Part shown: positions 2 to 7,414 of the stretch, piece by piece | How the letters are laid out: each line of letters opens with the position of its first letter | Numbering within the stretch: the stretch's first letter is position 1 | NCBI GenBank assembly: GCA_036496605.1 | Contig: DASXKV010000050.1 | Location: 248,001-312,000 of the forward strand | DNA from: Gemmatimonadaceae bacterium | GTDB taxonomy: Bacteria; Gemmatimonadota; Gemmatimonadetes; Gemmatimonadales; Gemmatimonadaceae | Direction of reading: 5' to 3' | DNA length: 64,000 nucleotides | The notes under the pieces: generated by a model | What the model saw: the letters and a program-made list of their open reading frames with translations, nothing else | What the model was told of the DNA's origin: nothing | Database searches by the model: none | Position numbers and translations under genes: made by a program

Positions 2-388
2 CTCGCTCTCCGCTCCGACGTGGCCGGCGAGACGGTGCACCTGTGCGCCGGTGATGGCGCGCTCCCGCTCGACGAACTGCTCGACATCACGTACGCGCGC
101 TGGGCCCAGCATCCCGAATGGCGGCGTCGGCGCGTCGCGCGTCCCGTCGTTGCCGATCTCGCCACCTACACGTTGTTCGAACGGACGATCGAGCAGGTCG
201 GTGACGCTTCACTGAGGCGCCTGACGCGTGCCCTGTCACACTTCGTGCCTCAGCTCGCGCTCCCCAAGCGCTTCCAGACGACAAACGCCGAACGACTCCT
301 CGGGCATAGGGCACCACCAGTGCGCGCCTTCTGGCTGCCGATGATCGACAATCTCGTCGCGCGGCACTCGATTCGGAGGGCCGCGTGA
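2..388 (+). CDS. C-terminal part of an SDR/thioester-reductase-like NAD(P)-binding protein (5' end outside window)
   Basis: The reading frame is open from base 2, so this is the tail of a gene that starts upstream. The 128 visible residues include a VHLCAGDG segment followed by LPLDELLDI, which resembles the end of the NAD_binding_4 (fatty acyl/thioester reductase, male-sterility) fold, then a helical C-terminal region rich in Arg. Such enzymes release carrier-bound thioesters as aldehydes or alcohols with NAD(P)H. The GTG of the next gene overlaps the TGA stop by 4 bp, so it is the first visible gene of the carrier-protein operon. The catalytic Ser-Tyr-Lys part lies outside the window, so the family assignment is inferred from the tail and context only. 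Confidence 0.5.
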   Translation, partial: LALRSDVAGETVHLCAGDGALPLDELLDITYARWAQHPEWRRRRVARPVVADLATYTLFERTIEQVGDASLRRLTRALSHFVPQLALPKRFQTTNAERLLGHRAPPVRAFWLPMIDNLVARHSIRRAA

Positions 389-642
389 GTATGGCAATGT
401 TCGTGTCGCGCACCGTGGATTGGGTCAATCGGACGCTCGTTCCACCAGGCGTTACCGTCGATGCCGACACGCCACTCTTCGCGAACGGGCTGATCAACTC
501 GATTCGCATTCTCAAGCTCATCGCCTGGACGGAGCACGCGCTCGGGATCCGCATTCCGGACACTCAGATTCGCATGGATTACTTTCGCACGGTGCGCCGC
601 ATCGCCGAGACCTTCGCTGGAGACTCCGATGTGGCCGCGTGA
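385..642 (+). CDS. Free-standing acyl/peptidyl carrier protein
   Basis: An 85-residue acidic helical protein of carrier-protein size. The phosphopantetheine attachment site is GLINSIRIL with Ser39; the usual DSL is NSI here. The later helices (LIAWTEHALGIRIPD, then FRTVRRIAETF) fit the ACP fold. GTG start at 385 overlaps the preceding stop; an ATG at 391 is an alternative. It sits directly before, and overlaps by 14 bp, an amino acid:carrier-protein ligase, so it is probably the cognate acceptor that carries an aminoacyl thioester rather than a fatty-acid-synthesis ACP. The carrier fold is seen; the aminoacyl cargo is inferred. Confidence 0.85.
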   Translation: MSMAMFVSRTVDWVNRTLVPPGVTVDADTPLFANGLINSIRILKLIAWTEHALGIRIPDTQIRMDYFRTVRRIAETFAGDSDVAA

Positions 643-1537
643 GGCAGTCATCAGGGTACTGCGTGCCCGTGGTGAGCTGTGGGACATTGCGCCCGGCGTG
701 ACCGTGCTTCGGGGCGATGCCGCGACCTTGCTTCGCGCGCTCGAGCGCGCAATCGGCGCACTGTGTGGCGTCGAGACCAGCGATGATTGGCGTGTGCCAC
801 CGGCGATCGACTTCGCGACACTCGCGCGCGCGGACTATTTCGCATCCTTCCCGCAATGGTTGACGCTCGCGTCGCATCTGAGCGACGATCCCGATGTACT
901 GCGCAATGTCGCCGAGCATAACGAGCTGAGTGGTGCCGTGGCGCCGGCGCGCCTCGCACTCAACCCGGCGGTCTGTTATCACGTTTACGCTGCGCTCGCG
1001 GGCGATATCATCAATGCTCCGAAGATCGTGACAGCGCAATCCGAGTGCTGGCGGCACGAGGGCGGCCGACACGTACCGCTCGAGCGAGGATGGGCCTTCA
1101 CGATGCGCGAGGTGGTGTGCGTCGGCAGCGACGAGGACGCGCGCGCCTTCCTCGAACGATCGGTCGAGCGCGTTGGTGATCTCGCACGCACGCTCGAACT
1201 GGACGCGACGGTCGAGGTCGCGACCGACCCCTTCTTCGCGCCAGTCGCGCGAGCGAAGCTGCTGCTCCAGCAGATGAAGGAGCTCAAGCGCGAGCTTCTC
1301 TTGCCGGTGAGTCCGCAGGCGCGCATTGCCGCGTCCTCGTTCAACCTGCACGACACCTTCTTCGGCGAGAGCTTCGACATCCGGCTCGCCAATGGACGGC
1401 CTGCGACGAGCGCCTGCGTCGCATTCGGTCTCGAGCGCTGGCTCCTCGCCATTCTCGTTAGGTACGGGCCCGATGCGGCACGGTGGCCGGCCATTCCATT
1501 ATCGATCGGCGACCTCGCCGAGGCACGACATGGCTGA
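629..1537 (+). CDS. Amino acid:[carrier protein] ligase (atypical seryl-tRNA synthetase homolog)
   Basis: A 302-residue class II aminoacyl-tRNA-synthetase-like catalytic core without a tRNA-binding domain. Cys116 (PAVCYH), Glu161 (TMREVVCVGS) and Cys263 (SACVAFGLER) are spaced like the Cys/Glu/Cys zinc ligands of archaeal-type SerRS and of the Bradyrhizobium/Agrobacterium amino acid:carrier-protein ligases. SECWRHEG plus TMREVV form motif 2 and VAFGLERWLLAIL forms motif 3. Known members activate Gly or Ala with ATP and load the 4'-phosphopantetheine of a small carrier protein. The adjacent upstream carrier gene is the expected partner. Substrate cannot be read from sequence. The start ATG lies inside the carrier gene, typical of translational coupling. 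Confidence 0.85.
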   Translation: MWPREAVIRVLRARGELWDIAPGVTVLRGDAATLLRALERAIGALCGVETSDDWRVPPAIDFATLARADYFASFPQWLTLASHLSDDPDVLRNVAEHNELSGAVAPARLALNPAVCYHVYAALAGDIINAPKIVTAQSECWRHEGGRHVPLERGWAFTMREVVCVGSDEDARAFLERSVERVGDLARTLELDATVEVATDPFFAPVARAKLLLQQMKELKRELLLPVSPQARIAASSFNLHDTFFGESFDIRLANGRPATSACVAFGLERWLLAILVRYGPDAARWPAIPLSIGDLAEARHG

Positions 1538-2282
1538 GACGATTCCGTCGGCCGGCTCGCTGTACGCGCGCCACGCCCGCGCCGCCGACCGCGGCGCCTG
1601 GTCGGTGGAGCACGATATCCGCTGGGTCGCGATCAATCGCGGCCGTGCACTTGCCCAGCCGGATATTCTCGCCAAGCTGCGCGCCGCCGCCCTCATCGAG
1701 TCGTTCCATCCGGTCAACCTCTCACGGCTCATTCGCTTTGCATGGGACGACGTCGACGCCGGCGTCGTGTTCTCGCTCGAGATGTACGAGGGATTCAAAC
1801 ACTTCCATGCCCTGCGCATGTATCTCGACGCCGTCGGCTTCGAGCCGCGCATTACCGACGAAGAGCTCGGGCAGATTCGGCAGCGGACGGACCGCAACGA
1901 TCTCGATCCGACGGATCCCGTTGGTCCGCTCGTCGAGTTCATGCTCAGCGAGCACCTCGCCGCGTACTTCTTCCGTCGACTCGGCGAGCAGGCCGAGGAG
2001 GCACAGCTGCGCGTATTGCTCGCGCTCATCGCCGCCGACGAGGTGCGCCACGCGCAGGCGGCGTCCGACCTCATCGCCAAGCGCATCGCCGCGAATCTTG
2101 AGCTCGCGCCTAACGTACTTCGCGCCGCGGCGCACTTCCGACACTATGGCGAAGAGGCCGTTGGCCAGGTGCCGACGGCGATGGAGGGCGACGAGATCGC
2201 GATTCGTACTTTCGCCACGCGCATCGAGCGACTCTGCGGGATGCGCTTCGTCGATCACCTCAAGATCGAACTGGAGCTCTGA
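1530..2282 (+). CDS. Ferritin-like diiron protein (putative oxygenase/desaturase), first of a pair
   Basis: A 250-residue, all-helical protein. Metal-ligand candidates are EMYEGFKH in the first half and a glutamate in SEHLAAYFFRRL followed by DEVRHAQ in the second, the pattern of ferritin-like carboxylate diiron enzymes related to acyl-ACP desaturases and AurF-like N-oxygenases. ATG at 1530 overlaps the ligase stop by 8 bp; longer upstream extensions would be antisense-like readings of the ligase gene. The position after a carrier protein and its ligase suggests oxidation, desaturation or N-oxygenation of the carrier-bound amino acid, which is inference. The exact subfamily is not recognised. 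Confidence 0.65.
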   Translation: MAETIPSAGSLYARHARAADRGAWSVEHDIRWVAINRGRALAQPDILAKLRAAALIESFHPVNLSRLIRFAWDDVDAGVVFSLEMYEGFKHFHALRMYLDAVGFEPRITDEELGQIRQRTDRNDLDPTDPVGPLVEFMLSEHLAAYFFRRLGEQAEEAQLRVLLALIAADEVRHAQAASDLIAKRIAANLELAPNVLRAAAHFRHYGEEAVGQVPTAMEGDEIAIRTFATRIERLCGMRFVDHLKIELEL

Positions 2283-2284
2283 CC

Positions 2285-2833
2285 ATGCAAATCACCAATC
2301 GCGAGCTCACGCTCCTCAACTTCTACCGTGCGTCGGAGCTGCACGGTGGACTCGTCCTCGGACGACTCGTGCAGCATGTGCGCGAGCCGGAGTTGATCCT
2401 CCGTCTCACCGCGCACAGCGCCGAGGAAATTCTGCACGCGCAGCTCTGGACCGAGACAATCGTCGCCGTCGGCGGCCAGCCGAGCGCTACCTCGGACACG
2501 TATCAGTCCCGTTATGCAGCCGCGCTCGGTGCTCCGACTTCGTTGCTGGAGGTGATGGCCCTGACGCAGGTCTTCGAGCGCGGCGTCTACCGGCACTTTG
2601 TGATGCATTTGCGACGGACGGGCACTCATCCGCGCGTGCGAGCAACGCTTCGCCGCATGCTCGCCGACGAGCGCGGGCATCTCTCATGGGTGAAAGAGTG
2701 GCTCGACGCCCAGGCCGGTTCGCGCCGTGCCGCCGTGCCGGCACTGATGCGCCGCTATACCGTCGTCGATGCTGCGATTCGCAGACAGCTGATGAGTGAT
2801 TACGAATGGAGGGAGTTGGCATGCGCGTCCTGA
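2285..2833 (+). CDS. Ferritin-like diiron protein, second of the pair
   Basis: A 182-residue four-helix protein with the full canonical ligand set: Glu in ASELHGG, EEILHA (E..H), Glu in VFERGVYRH and DERGHL (E..H). This is the arrangement of bacterioferritin/rubrerythrin-like diiron centres. It lies 2 bp after the previous diiron gene and overlaps the next gene by 13 bp. Because both neighbours in the pair carry metal ligands, they may be two separate oxidative steps, or an enzyme and a helper. Substrate unknown; not similar enough to a named enzyme for a symbol. Confidence 0.65.
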   Translation: MQITNRELTLLNFYRASELHGGLVLGRLVQHVREPELILRLTAHSAEEILHAQLWTETIVAVGGQPSATSDTYQSRYAAALGAPTSLLEVMALTQVFERGVYRHFVMHLRRTGTHPRVRATLRRMLADERGHLSWVKEWLDAQAGSRRAAVPALMRRYTVVDAAIRRQLMSDYEWRELACAS

Positions 2834-3987
2834 CCGTTACCGAACGCCTATCAACGGGTCGCGCCGAACGCATCGCGCTCCCGAATACCGTCGACGACCG
2901 GCTCTACTTTGCGCAGGTACGCGAGGATCCAGAGCTGGAGCTACACGCACTAACCCCTGGACCTAACGACTCGTTCGTCGTCGTCGGCTCGGGGGGATGC
3001 ACGGCGCTCTCGCTTCTTGGCGGTGGCGCCGGCCATGTCACTGCGGTCGACGTCAATACCACACAGGGGCATCTCATCGAGCTCAAGCTCGCGGCGCTCA
3101 CTGTCCTCTCACGCTGGGACGCGCTGGCCTTCCTCGGCGCATGCGATTGTCTCGTTGGCGAGCGCATCGACATGTACGCCGAGTTACGGCCACAACTCTC
3201 CTTCCGCGCGCGTGCATACTGGGACACGCAGCTCTCGGCCATTTCGGACGGTGTACTCGGCGCCGGCGTCACCGAGCGCTTCATTCGCATGCTCGTGCGC
3301 GCCCTGCGCGTCGTGCTGCGACCGCGTTCTGGTCTGGAACGCATGCTCGGTTGTGAGTCGATCGACGCGCAGCGGGGACTCTTCGCACGCGAGTGGAACA
3401 CGATTCGCTGGCGCCTCTTCTTTCGGATTCTGCTCAATCGAGCCGCGTTCCGTCGGACGTACGACCCGGCGTTCTTCAACCACCTCGAGCGCCCGAGCTT
3501 CGCCGAGCATTTCCGACGGTGCGCCGAGCATGCGCTCACCGAGCTGCCGGTGCGCGGGAATTATTTCCTGCACCACATGATCACTGGGCGCTACGACGTC
3601 GACGCGGACGACGGGGTCCCACCGTATCTCACGGAGGCGGGTTACGAAGCGATTGGCGCGTCGAGCGAGCGACTCACCGTCGTCGACGGAACGATGACCG
3701 ATTATCTCCGGACGCTTCCGGATCACAGCGTCTCCGGCTTCTCGCTCTCGAATATCTGCGAGTGGTTGGCGCCCAACGATATCGACGCATTGTTTGCCGA
3801 GATCGTGCGCACGGCGGTGCCGAATGCGACGCTCTGCTTCCGGAACTTCGTCGGTTGGACCGAGGTGCCGACGCGCTTTCGCTCGGTCGTTCCCGAGGAT
3901 CGTTCGCTTGGCGAGCGGCTGATTCCACGGGATCGGAGCGTCGTTGCGCGACGCTTCGCCGTCTGCCGCGTAAACGCGGAGGCGTGA
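2821..3987 (+). CDS. DUF3419/BtaA-like S-adenosylmethionine 3-amino-3-carboxypropyl transferase
   Basis: A 388-residue protein with the BtaA/DUF3419 signature: FAQVREDPELELHAL, then a nucleotide-binding stretch VVVGSGGCTALSLLGGGAG, AVDVNTTQGHLIELKLAAL, and a C-terminal SNICEWL segment. BtaA transfers the 3-amino-3-carboxypropyl group of SAM to diacylglycerol in betaine-lipid synthesis; relatives act on other acceptors. No BtaB N-methyltransferase is adjacent, so ordinary DGTS lipid synthesis is unlikely to be complete here. ATG 2821 is preferred to 2806 because GGAGGG lies about 7 nt before it. The operon context suggests the acceptor is the product built on the carrier protein. Confidence 0.75.
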   Translation: MRVLTVTERLSTGRAERIALPNTVDDRLYFAQVREDPELELHALTPGPNDSFVVVGSGGCTALSLLGGGAGHVTAVDVNTTQGHLIELKLAALTVLSRWDALAFLGACDCLVGERIDMYAELRPQLSFRARAYWDTQLSAISDGVLGAGVTERFIRMLVRALRVVLRPRSGLERMLGCESIDAQRGLFAREWNTIRWRLFFRILLNRAAFRRTYDPAFFNHLERPSFAEHFRRCAEHALTELPVRGNYFLHHMITGRYDVDADDGVPPYLTEAGYEAIGASSERLTVVDGTMTDYLRTLPDHSVSGFSLSNICEWLAPNDIDALFAEIVRTAVPNATLCFRNFVGWTEVPTRFRSVVPEDRSLGERLIPRDRSVVARRFAVCRVNAEA

Positions 3988-3989
3988 TC

Positions 3990-5117
3990 ATGGGCGCCGC
4001 AGTGTCCGCGCGTCCTGCCATCTGCGTGCGCGACGCCGATGCCGGTGACAATGACGCGCTCCTCGAGATCGCCGCCTCGTGTCCGATGGAAGGCGACATC
4101 GCGCTCGCGATGACTCGCGCTCCCGATTTCTTCCAGCTCAATCGGCTCGAGGGTGCGCAATGGCGCGTCGGCGTCGCGGAAATGGACGGCCGAGTAGTGG
4201 GATGCGTCATGGGAGCGCAGCGACGCGCGTACCTCAATGGAGAGGAACGCTGGACCTTCTACACTGGCGACTTGAAGGTTCATCCGACGAAGCGGCGTGC
4301 AGGCGTGGCGGACGCGCTGAGTGAATGGGTACGAACCGCGCTCGGGGATATGGGAGGTAGCGGCGCGCCAGTCCTCCTCACCATTCTCGGCGGGAATCGC
4401 GCGATGGAGCGTCGTACCCTCGGTCGCGGCCGCGTCCCGCGCTTCGAACGGTTCGCGACGATTCGAGCATTCTCAATTCCGCTGCTCTTTCCGCGGCGAT
4501 TCGGACAGACGTCGCCGCGCGTCCATCGTGCAACGATGGCCGATATCGAGGAGATGATCGTCCTGTGGAAGCGCGTCGCGCCGGCGCGGCAGTTCGCGCC
4601 GGTGCTCACTCCCGAGAGTTTCGCCGAGTGGGTCGCCAGCGCGCCTGGACTCGATGTCTCGGATTTCCGTCTCGCGCGAGATAGTGCCGGCCGACTCCTC
4701 GGCTTTCTCGGCTGGTGGGATCAGTCGTCATTCAAGCAGCTTCGCGTGATGCGGTACTCGCCGAGGCTCGGCGTCGTGAGAGCCGTCATCAATGGCCTCG
4801 CAAGCCTGACGCACGGCGTGGCGCTCCCGAGTCCCGGAGAGGCCCTTCGTTATTGCACGGCGACGCACGTCTGCGTGCCCGGCGAAAAGTCCGACGTACT
4901 GAGGGCTCTCGTTAGGTCGAGCTACGGCGAGCTCCGTGACTCTCGTCATGCATTCGCGACGATCGGTCTCGACGTGCGCGATCCGCTTTGTGGCGCGCTC
5001 GATGGGCTTTTCGTTCAGCCGACAGATTCGCACGCGTTCGTTTGCACGGCACTTGGAGATTATTCGGGACCGTCGCTCGTCGATCGGCCGTTGCAGTACG
5101 AGATCGCGCTCGTATGA
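3990..5117 (+). CDS. Tandem GNAT-family N-acyltransferase
   Basis: A 375-residue protein with two GNAT-like halves. The N-terminal half holds the acetyl-CoA-binding motif (LKVHPTKRRAGVADAL, R-x-x-G-x-A type, near residue 95). The C-terminal half (from about residue 185, TMADIEEMIVLWKR) resembles a second, degenerate GNAT fold. ATG 3990 is used; GTG 3984 is an alternative. It starts 2 bp after the BtaA-like gene and overlaps the transporter by 4 bp. Probable role: N-acylation of the pathway product, or self-protection. The GNAT fold is clear for the first half, the role is inferred. Confidence 0.75.
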   Translation: MGAAVSARPAICVRDADAGDNDALLEIAASCPMEGDIALAMTRAPDFFQLNRLEGAQWRVGVAEMDGRVVGCVMGAQRRAYLNGEERWTFYTGDLKVHPTKRRAGVADALSEWVRTALGDMGGSGAPVLLTILGGNRAMERRTLGRGRVPRFERFATIRAFSIPLLFPRRFGQTSPRVHRATMADIEEMIVLWKRVAPARQFAPVLTPESFAEWVASAPGLDVSDFRLARDSAGRLLGFLGWWDQSSFKQLRVMRYSPRLGVVRAVINGLASLTHGVALPSPGEALRYCTATHVCVPGEKSDVLRALVRSSYGELRDSRHAFATIGLDVRDPLCGALDGLFVQPTDSHAFVCTALGDYSGPSLVDRPLQYEIALV

Positions 5118-7414
5118 ACCGGTCGCGACTCTCGGACGCTCTCCCGTCGTTGATCGTAAGACATCGCGCCATTGTGGTGCTCGGCTGGATCATCACATCC
5201 GCGCTGATGCTGCCGAACGCTCGGCACTTGGAGTCGGTGTTGCGCGTTGCGGCGCGCGTGGATGGCAGTGAGTCCGCGACGGTGGACGAGCAGCTCGCGC
5301 GGCGCTTTCGATCTCCATTTGCACACTCAGTCGTTCTCGTGGCGACAGGTCTTCCGTCGCCCACCGAGTCGACCGGACGTGCCGTGTTGCTCGGCCTGAC
5401 CGACTCGTTGCAGACTCTCCGTGGCGTGACGCGGGTATTCTCCTACCTCGATGGGCGCGAGCCTCTCTTCGTGGGAGATGGCGGCTACTTCCTCGTCGTC
5501 GGGTTGTCGGATGGGCGCGAAGCGGATGTCATGCTCGATACGCTGCGTGTGGCAACGCAACGCTGGGCCGCGCTGCTACGGCACGATTACGCGAGTGTGT
5601 CGCTGCGATTCACGGGCGAGACAGCGCTCAACGTCGATCTTCGGCGGAAGAGTGCCGACGACGCGCGGCGCGCCGAGTGGCGCGTGCTACCCGTCACGCT
5701 CGTTCTGTTGGTCGTCGCGTTCGGCGCACTCGTTGCCGCGCTTCTGCCGATCGGTGCGGCGCTCCTCTCGATTGGCATCGCGTTAGGCGCCGCAGCGCTG
5801 CTCGGACATCTTTGGTCGCTGTCGATTCTGCTTCAGAATGTCGTGACGATGATCGGGCTGGGGCTCGGTATCGATTATTCGCTGCTCGTCCTGCAGCGGT
5901 TCCGAGAGGAGCTTCTCATTGCCGACGATCGACAGCGCGCCGCCGCGCAGGCGCTGCGTCACGCCGCGCCGACGATCCTTCTCTCCGCATCGGCGGTCGC
6001 GATCGGCTTTGCGGCGCTGGCGATGATCCCCGTAAACGAGCTGCGGTCGGTTGCGGTGGGCGGACTGCTCGTGACGGCAGCTTCGATGCTCGTCGCGACG
6101 ACGCTCGTGCCCGTCGTGCTGGGAACGCTGGGTCGTCGCATCGACATTGGGCGCGTGAGTCGCGTTAGGCGCCGGGTCGGCATCGGATGGCAGCGCTGGG
6201 CGGCTTTTGTGACGCGACACCCCGGCCGCGTGTTGCTGTTTGCTGGCGCAGCCATTGGGCTACTCGCAATGCAGTCGCGACGACTGACGACCGGCCAGCC
6301 ATCGATCGATTGGTTACCGAAGCAGATGGAATCCGCCGTTGCACTGCGTGAATTGACCTCGATGGAACGCGGCGCCATCGTGCAGACGCTGCGTCTCACC
6401 CTCGACTTGCCATCCGACGTCTCCGCGGTCGACGATAGCGGATGGGCGGCGACTTCGCGGCTGGCGCGACGACTCGTCGCCGACTCGTCGGTAGCGCGGG
6501 TCCGATCGCTGCCAGGACTGGTCGCGCCGATGGGCAACGCGCTACCGCGCAATGTGATGCTCCAGACACTTCCTCCGGACGTCAGGCAGATGTTCGTGAG
6601 CGGCGATGACCATGCGGCGATGTTGGAGGTCATCCCGCGCGAGGGTTTGTCGCCGGATGAGCTAGCCGCGCTCGTCAGGCGCATTCGCGACATGCCTCCG
6701 GCGAGCGCGACGCCAGCGGGCACATCGATGCTTCGCGTCGGCGGAGTTCCGGCACTCAACATCGACTACGAGACCGCGGTGGCCGGGCCGCGACAACTCA
6801 CGCGCGTCGTTTCACTGATCGTCGTCGCGACGTTCGTCGTGCTCGCGATCGGCTTTCGTTCGCTACTCGTTCCGCTCAAGGCAATTACTCTCAATCTGCT
6901 CGCCGTTGCCGCGGCATTCGGTGCCGTGACACTCGTCTTTCAGGAAGGCATCGGCGCCTCGCTACTCGGCGTCGCTAGCCCGCTCGGTCGTGTGTTCCCG
7001 GCGGTACTGGTGCTGGTCTTCTGCATCGTCTTCGGTCTGAGCATGGATTACGAAGTCTTCCTTGTCGCGCGCGTGCGCGAAGGACGATTAGCTGGTCTCG
7101 GCGAGCGCCAGGCAATCGCGCAAGGTCTGACGTGTACGGCACGACTGATCACGAGCGCCGCCGCGATCATGATCGCCGTGTTCGGCGCGTTCATGCTCGG
7201 CGATTTCTTGCTGATGAAGGTGCTCGGCTTTGCGTTGGCGTTCGCGGTACTGATCGACGCGACCGTAATGCGCCTGGCAATCAGTCCGGCGTTATTGGTG
7301 ATCGCGGGTCGCTGGAATTGGTGGCCGGGCGAGCGGAGAGCGCAGAAGCCAGCAACGCGTTTGCGAGAGGAAGCGCACGCGCATCTCCTACGACTTGAAA
7401 AGGGAAATTTATGA
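5114..7414 (+). CDS. MMPL/RND-family exporter
   Basis: A 766-residue inner-membrane protein with about 11-12 membrane segments in two similar halves, each beginning with one segment, a large periplasmic domain and a block of hydrophobic helices. The proton-relay Asp-Tyr motifs are visible in both halves (GLGLGIDYSLLVL and FGLSMDYEVFLV). MMPL proteins export lipids, polyketides and siderophores using the proton gradient. The ATG overlaps the GNAT stop (ATGA), so it is the last gene of the carrier-protein operon and its likely exporter. Confidence 0.88.
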   Translation: MNRSRLSDALPSLIVRHRAIVVLGWIITSALMLPNARHLESVLRVAARVDGSESATVDEQLARRFRSPFAHSVVLVATGLPSPTESTGRAVLLGLTDSLQTLRGVTRVFSYLDGREPLFVGDGGYFLVVGLSDGREADVMLDTLRVATQRWAALLRHDYASVSLRFTGETALNVDLRRKSADDARRAEWRVLPVTLVLLVVAFGALVAALLPIGAALLSIGIALGAAALLGHLWSLSILLQNVVTMIGLGLGIDYSLLVLQRFREELLIADDRQRAAAQALRHAAPTILLSASAVAIGFAALAMIPVNELRSVAVGGLLVTAASMLVATTLVPVVLGTLGRRIDIGRVSRVRRRVGIGWQRWAAFVTRHPGRVLLFAGAAIGLLAMQSRRLTTGQPSIDWLPKQMESAVALRELTSMERGAIVQTLRLTLDLPSDVSAVDDSGWAATSRLARRLVADSSVARVRSLPGLVAPMGNALPRNVMLQTLPPDVRQMFVSGDDHAAMLEVIPREGLSPDELAALVRRIRDMPPASATPAGTSMLRVGGVPALNIDYETAVAGPRQLTRVVSLIVVATFVVLAIGFRSLLVPLKAITLNLLAVAAAFGAVTLVFQEGIGASLLGVASPLGRVFPAVLVLVFCIVFGLSMDYEVFLVARVREGRLAGLGERQAIAQGLTCTARLITSAAAIMIAVFGAFMLGDFLLMKVLGFALAFAVLIDATVMRLAISPALLVIAGRWNWWPGERRAQKPATRLREEAHAHLLRLEKGNL

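Follow-up and report, generated by a model that had tools for sequence, protein, structure and literature searches.

The genes at the start of the analyzed DNA raise the question of whether an amino acid:carrier-protein ligase and the enzymes encoded beside it belong to a single pathway and, if so, what that pathway might make. The window, i.e., the whole stretch of 64,000 nucleotides that was analyzed (G000:C50:248001-312000), comes from the 5.97-Mb genome of a soil bacterium of the Gemmatimonadaceae, and 14 kb upstream of it were also read, which located the operon start. The operon consists of ten genes that form one unit of ~9.7 kb and begins 2.3 kb upstream of the window (Table 1). The first-pass annotation had counted eight genes, and the PPTase and KASIII-like genes upstream of the window bring the number to ten. 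Its individual gene assignments hold, and every gene it named was recovered in place, intact and tightly coupled, except for the reductase, which is cut by the window edge (full gene L002:13318-14388, i.e., window -683..388). We consider it highly probable (about 0.9) that these genes form a dedicated carrier-protein biosynthetic operon.

Table 1 Genes of the operon, with profile scores (cut-offs in brackets, where available) or other evidence. Positions refer to the window unless a locus is named.
Gene product	Position	Strand	Evidence
PPTase (Sfp/AcpS-type)	L002:11679-12356, outside window		PF01648, 36.3 bits
KASIII-like synthase	L002:12353-13321, outside window		PF08541, 59.3 bits (26.6); PF08545, 35.3 bits (24)
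SDR-type thioester reductase-like protein, C-terminal part	2..388	+	PF07993 (NAD_binding_4), 139.6 bits (20.1)
ACP	385..642	+	PF00550 (PP-binding), 29.9 bits (20.8); Ser39 invariant in 8
Amino acid:carrier-protein ligase, SerRS-like, catalytic core only	629..1537	+	3mey, E 4e-56
DI1, ferritin-like diiron protein, predicted acyl-ACP-desaturase fold	1530..2282	+	Model; DesA2 match
DI2, COQ7-like diiron protein	2285..2833	+	PF03232, 30.5 bits (23.5)
DUF3419 (BtaA-like), putative SAM 3-amino-3-carboxypropyl transferase	2806..3987	+	PF11899, 197 bits (28.2)
Tandem GNAT, N-myristoyltransferase-like	3990..5117	+	Model fold match to NMT; invariant C-terminal ALV
MMPL-family exporter	5114..7414	+	PF03176, 224.9 bits (20.5)

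The PPTase/KASIII, KASIII/reductase, reductase/ACP, and GNAT/MMPL junctions are 4-bp overlaps. The ACP and ligase genes overlap by 14 bp, the ligase and DI1 genes by 8 bp, and the DI2 and DUF3419 genes by 28 bp (13 bp if a later DUF3419 ATG at 2821 is used), while gaps of 2 bp separate DI1 from DI2 and DUF3419 from GNAT. Scans of the locus for promoters and terminators gave nothing above chance, and defense-system models gave no match. It should be noted that a long alternative frame lies open across DI1 (window 1483-2799, + strand, second frame). It has significant tblastn matches in relatives and is conserved enough to mislead searches; it is a high-GC frame artefact.

Scattering of the genes in related genomes had been named beforehand as a result that would count against a single pathway. 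Instead, nine or ten of the 395 Gemmatimonadota genomes, from three families, carried the gene set in the same order with protein identities of ~50-80%, and tblastn with the operon proteins showed the same order in seven other loci of the phylum. Such conservation of order and proteins across genomes shows that the operon is no chance arrangement. A DI1 profile run against the 395 genomes found close copies in ten genomes of three families, nine of which also have the DUF3419 and GNAT genes; in the tenth (G360), the contig end falls inside DI2. Pairwise identities in six complete loci averaged 48-66%, depending on the protein, with DI1 the highest. The identity patterns of seven operon proteins were weakly correlated (mean 0.24, reached by 6 of 2000 permutations), so single genes may possibly have been exchanged. 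The PPTase gene lies upstream of the operon only here and in three other loci (L011, L012, L013), and the other flanking genes, upstream and downstream, differ between genomes and are not conserved. The operon is also absent from many genomes of the same family, and this patchy distribution is the pattern of a specialized-metabolite cluster. Outside Gemmatimonadota, the search of whole genomes was limited to the ligase and close-relative patterns, and tblastn searches of plasmids with DI1 and DI2 gave no match. Another group of DI1 relatives, the third, was set aside; at 186 aa and about 30% identity, it stands alone among unrelated genes.

Parts of the operon also recur separately. A sister cluster with the order KAS-reductase-ACP-ligase-X-DI1-DI2 was found in five genomes, with 30-58% identity by protein, and none of the five had a DUF3419 match. 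One of its contigs (L081) begins at DI1, so that DI1-DI2 alone are visible there, and the X gene, read in L077 and L080, encodes a methyltransferase-fold protein (PF12147). The DI2 proteins of L077, L078, and L081 continue into a carrier domain at the C-terminus (PF00550, 46 bits in L078), and this fusion is physical evidence that diiron proteins of this family handle substrates bound to a carrier. Genome G158 encodes a DUF3419-GNAT fusion, evidence that the two proteins act in one route, and the fused gene lies immediately downstream of a MacB/FtsX-type ABC transporter. In G282, a GNAT gene (45% identity) adjoins an MMPL gene of the same type (50%), and the rest of the operon is absent. In two operon genomes, G312 and G340, GNAT and MMPL are separated by a radical SAM/SPASM gene (L086:4814-5830; L089:1838-2836), which was absent at full length from the other operon genomes searched. 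The G215 operon has no DI2, so the DI2 step is dispensable or done otherwise there. Since these modules recur separately, the operon is modular, with a core for building an ACP-tethered oxidized unit and a variable tailoring and export set.

The ligase has 302 aa, and its alignment with SerRS covers the core only, with no SerRS tRNA-binding domain. Residues C116, E161, and C263, which we take to be the zinc site of the amino acid:carrier-protein ligase family, had been picked out in the first-pass annotation and proved invariant in seven homologs, as did the class II residues R142, E144, and R270. The closest solved structure is Bradyrhizobium Bll0957 (PDB 3mey). The NCBIfam equivalog NF005479 scored 182.2 bits, below its cut-off of 357, and the protein is therefore assigned by sequence to a distant subfamily of amino acid:[carrier protein] ligases, with a predicted loading activity; its gene overlaps that of the ACP. 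The ligase has its SFNxH motif in common with both SerRS and the Bradyrhizobium ligase, so amino-acid specificity is not readable from it. The same genome has two further, mutually paralogous loci with ligases of this kind (L097, G000:C68:17000-34000; L098, G000:C33:9000-26000). Their neighbors, read by eye, are apparently an acyl-CoA dehydrogenase, CGS/sulfhydrylase-like, MetA-like acyltransferase, and PLP decarboxylase-like proteins, and a carrier protein.

Cys134 and His248 of the KASIII-like enzyme align with FabH-type enzymes. However, the Asn of the usual Cys-His-Asn triad is replaced by His279 in 12 of 12 proteins from both cluster types, so that the condensation chemistry may differ from the usual. 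No precedent that we found would predict that a KASIII enzyme reacts with an aminoacyl or acyl partner. The reductase matches the MxaA reductase domain (4u7w, E 1.3e-33), and Y150 and K154 of its YxxxK motif are invariant. Its TIGR01746 score of 101.3 bits is below the cut-off of 213.35.

The predicted model of DI1 (pLDDT 82.8) has a desaturase fold. Stearoyl-ACP desaturases come first among its matches (Z 18.4, with an rmsd of 3.2 for 232 residues), followed by R2lox (Z 16.6) and VlmB (Z 16.0). The sequence profile matches DesA2 (E 9.2e-8), and the Pfam match to PF03405 is below the cut-off (13.9 bits vs 22.7). Seven candidate metal ligands (E57, E84, E87, H91, E141, E171, H174) are invariant in 12 proteins, and the first iron motif is ExxxH (E87xxxH91), not ExxH. 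DI2 has the canonical E, ExxH, E, ExxH set conserved (E18, E48xxH51, E98, E129xxH132). The AurF-type N-oxygenases of the FDO family are reported to have a seventh His, placed four residues ahead of the second ExxH (PMC12154687). This residue is absent from DI1 and DI2 in all homologs aligned, which argues for oxidation at carbon. The earlier proposal that the diiron proteins oxidize a carrier-bound substrate gains support from the diiron-carrier fusion of the sister cluster, but neither diiron protein has the AurF-type residue.

The DUF3419 gene is the only copy in the genome. No solved relative of its product was found by sequence, and the protein is 28-38% identical to the phylum's stand-alone DUF3419 proteins. 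BtaA is the aminocarboxypropyl transferase of betaine-lipid synthesis (reviewed in PMC10491745). The family assignment makes the gene product a putative 3-amino-3-carboxypropyl transferase that would use SAM. In two genomes from two families (L067 in G184, L069 in G199), a different DUF3419 gene lies with CDP-alcohol phosphotransferase-like and HMG-CoA-reductase genes.

The GNAT model (pLDDT 84.8, pTM 0.86) matches N-myristoyltransferases (NMTs) with Z 24.7 over 308 residues, at full length to the last residue, and residue 375 lies inside the range aligned to NMT residue 496. The mycobacterial tandem GNAT 7q3a ties with them (Z 23.7), so the fold alone is not decisive, and the sequence match to NMT is weak (E 0.012; 9-14% identity). 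All ten operon copies retain the C-terminus E-[IST]-ALV-COOH, unlike the variable C-termini of the ligase, DUF3419, and MMPL proteins. Because three Val codons and two stop codons are used, with or without an ATGA overlap, the ending does not merely reflect where the following gene starts. Non-operon copies with 29-45% identity end in ETALV (L099) or EMALV (L100, L101), and more distant GNATs (L102-L104) keep the register of the ending with changed letters. The catalytic base of NMT is its C-terminal carboxylate (PMC7048800), and by analogy we infer that GNAT is an N-acyltransferase with the NMT mechanism. The acylation step proposed in the first-pass annotation is thereby sharpened to an NMT-like one. 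In G282 (L099) and G135 (L103), NMT-like GNAT relatives adjoin a second GNAT-like gene and, by eye, an apparent GH3-type ligase, possibly a further acylation cluster.

From these features we infer the substrates, the order of steps, and the product of a pathway as follows. The PPTase would arm the ACP, and the ligase would adenylate a small amino acid, of the Gly/Ala type to judge from its family, and load it onto the ACP. The KASIII-like enzyme, through Cys134-His248-His279, would join the ACP-bound unit to another acyl unit. DI1 and DI2 would oxidize the carrier-bound intermediate, most likely at carbon, and the reductase would off-load it as an aldehyde or alcohol. After release, the DUF3419 protein would transfer the C4 (3-amino-3-carboxypropyl) unit of SAM, the NMT-like GNAT would then N-acylate the molecule, and MMPL would lastly export a lipid-like metabolite. 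We give even odds to this overall scheme of a modular operon for an exported, lipid-like amino-acid derivative, and less than that to any single substrate in it. A bolder, rather doubtful proposal is that the operon makes a new class of bacterial lipoamino-acid metabolites by aminoacyl-ACP oxidation and SAM aminocarboxypropylation. A late NMT-type enzyme would then N-acylate the ACP-bound or SAM-derived amino acid via its own C-terminal carboxylate.

The oxidation could alternatively take place at nitrogen, with the ligase loading glycine or a similar amino acid, the diiron proteins converting its nitrogen to hydroxylamine or nitro, and the KASIII-like enzyme using the activated unit. Comparable genes are grouped on Tistrella plasmid pTM2 (ligase, ACP, diiron oxygenase, nitronate monooxygenase) and on a Streptomyces plasmid (ligase, ACP, diiron oxygenase, PPTase). 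Furthermore, DI2 of the sister cluster matches AurF, although below the cut-off (E 4.5e-6), and VlmB is among the DI1 fold matches. However, the seventh His reported for the FDO N-oxygenases (PMC12154687) is missing from both DI1 and DI2, and the best DI1 match is to acyl-ACP desaturases, which makes nitrogen oxidation unlikely.

We regard as similarly improbable a pathway to a membrane lipid of the cell, homoserine-ether-type (betaine-lipid-like), that MMPL would carry to the outer membrane. The shared family of BtaA and the DUF3419 protein (PMC10491745), the lipid transport carried out by MMPL proteins, and the NMT-like GNAT are consistent with such a product, but the operon is patchily distributed (10 of 395 genomes), the aminoacyl-carrier core has no role in a betaine lipid, and other members of the phylum have DUF3419 genes that stand alone. 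GNAT and MMPL could also serve self-protection, the one inactivating a bioactive product by acetylation and the other pumping it out. GNAT acetyltransferases such as PamZ can be self-resistance factors (PMC9054821), and GNAT and MMPL occur side by side in G282, which lacks the core. This role is nevertheless very unlikely, as the DUF3419-GNAT fusion ties GNAT to the alkylation step, and the full-length NMT match and fixed C-terminus fit a biosynthetic acyl transfer.

A biosynthetic operon for an exported amino-acid derivative, which is our preferred reading, would place a ligase, a carrier, two candidate carrier-acting oxidases, a reductase, a putative SAM-C4 transferase, an NMT-like acyltransferase, and an exporter in a transferable unit of ~9.7 kb. 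To our knowledge, no pathway with a known product has been assigned to amino acid:carrier-protein ligases, and we know of few small-molecule aminocarboxypropyl transferases. Being compact and conserved, the operon would allow a direct test of what these ligases do biologically, and it points to a possible prokaryotic counterpart of N-myristoyltransferase. The first-pass annotation knew of no described pathway with this combination of enzymes, which agrees with our open-access literature searches (DUF3419; amino acid:carrier-protein ligases with diiron enzymes; SAM-C4 natural products), although searches of this limited kind cannot prove absence. Ligase-carrier loci as such are a known kind of locus; none of these searches turned up one with the present set of enzymes.

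Among the known loci, Bradyrhizobium Bll0957 (3mey) and the rhizobial and Azospirillum ligases have the same catalytic core, zinc residues, and carrier-protein neighbor as the ligase described here. However, their loci have acyl-CoA dehydrogenase (as in Azospirillum) and DUF1839 neighbors, whereas here the neighbors are KASIII, a reductase, two diiron proteins, DUF3419, GNAT, and MMPL. Tistrella pTM2 and Streptomyces NBC_00335 have the ligase, ACP, and diiron oxygenase adjacent, as here, but with an AurF-annotated oxygenase and nitronate monooxygenase or type II PKS neighbors, and without DUF3419, NMT-like GNAT, or MMPL. The Nocardia dob (diazo) pathway resembles the proposed scheme in a carrier-held glycine-derived unit, a Claisen condensation, and a ferritin-like diiron oxidation (PMC12154687). 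It differs in its AMP-ligase, type I PKS, N-N chemistry, and AurF-type oxidase with the seventh His, and DUF3419 and MMPL go unmentioned there. Betaine-lipid synthesis by BtaA shares the DUF3419 family, which here lies within a carrier-protein pathway. Finally, GNAT resembles eukaryotic NMT in having two GNAT domains, in a full-length fold match that is tied with the one to 7q3a, and in a fixed C-terminal end that aligns with the catalytic C-terminus. It differs in that the two proteins share 9-14% identity and no significant sequence match, and in its place in a bacterial biosynthetic operon.
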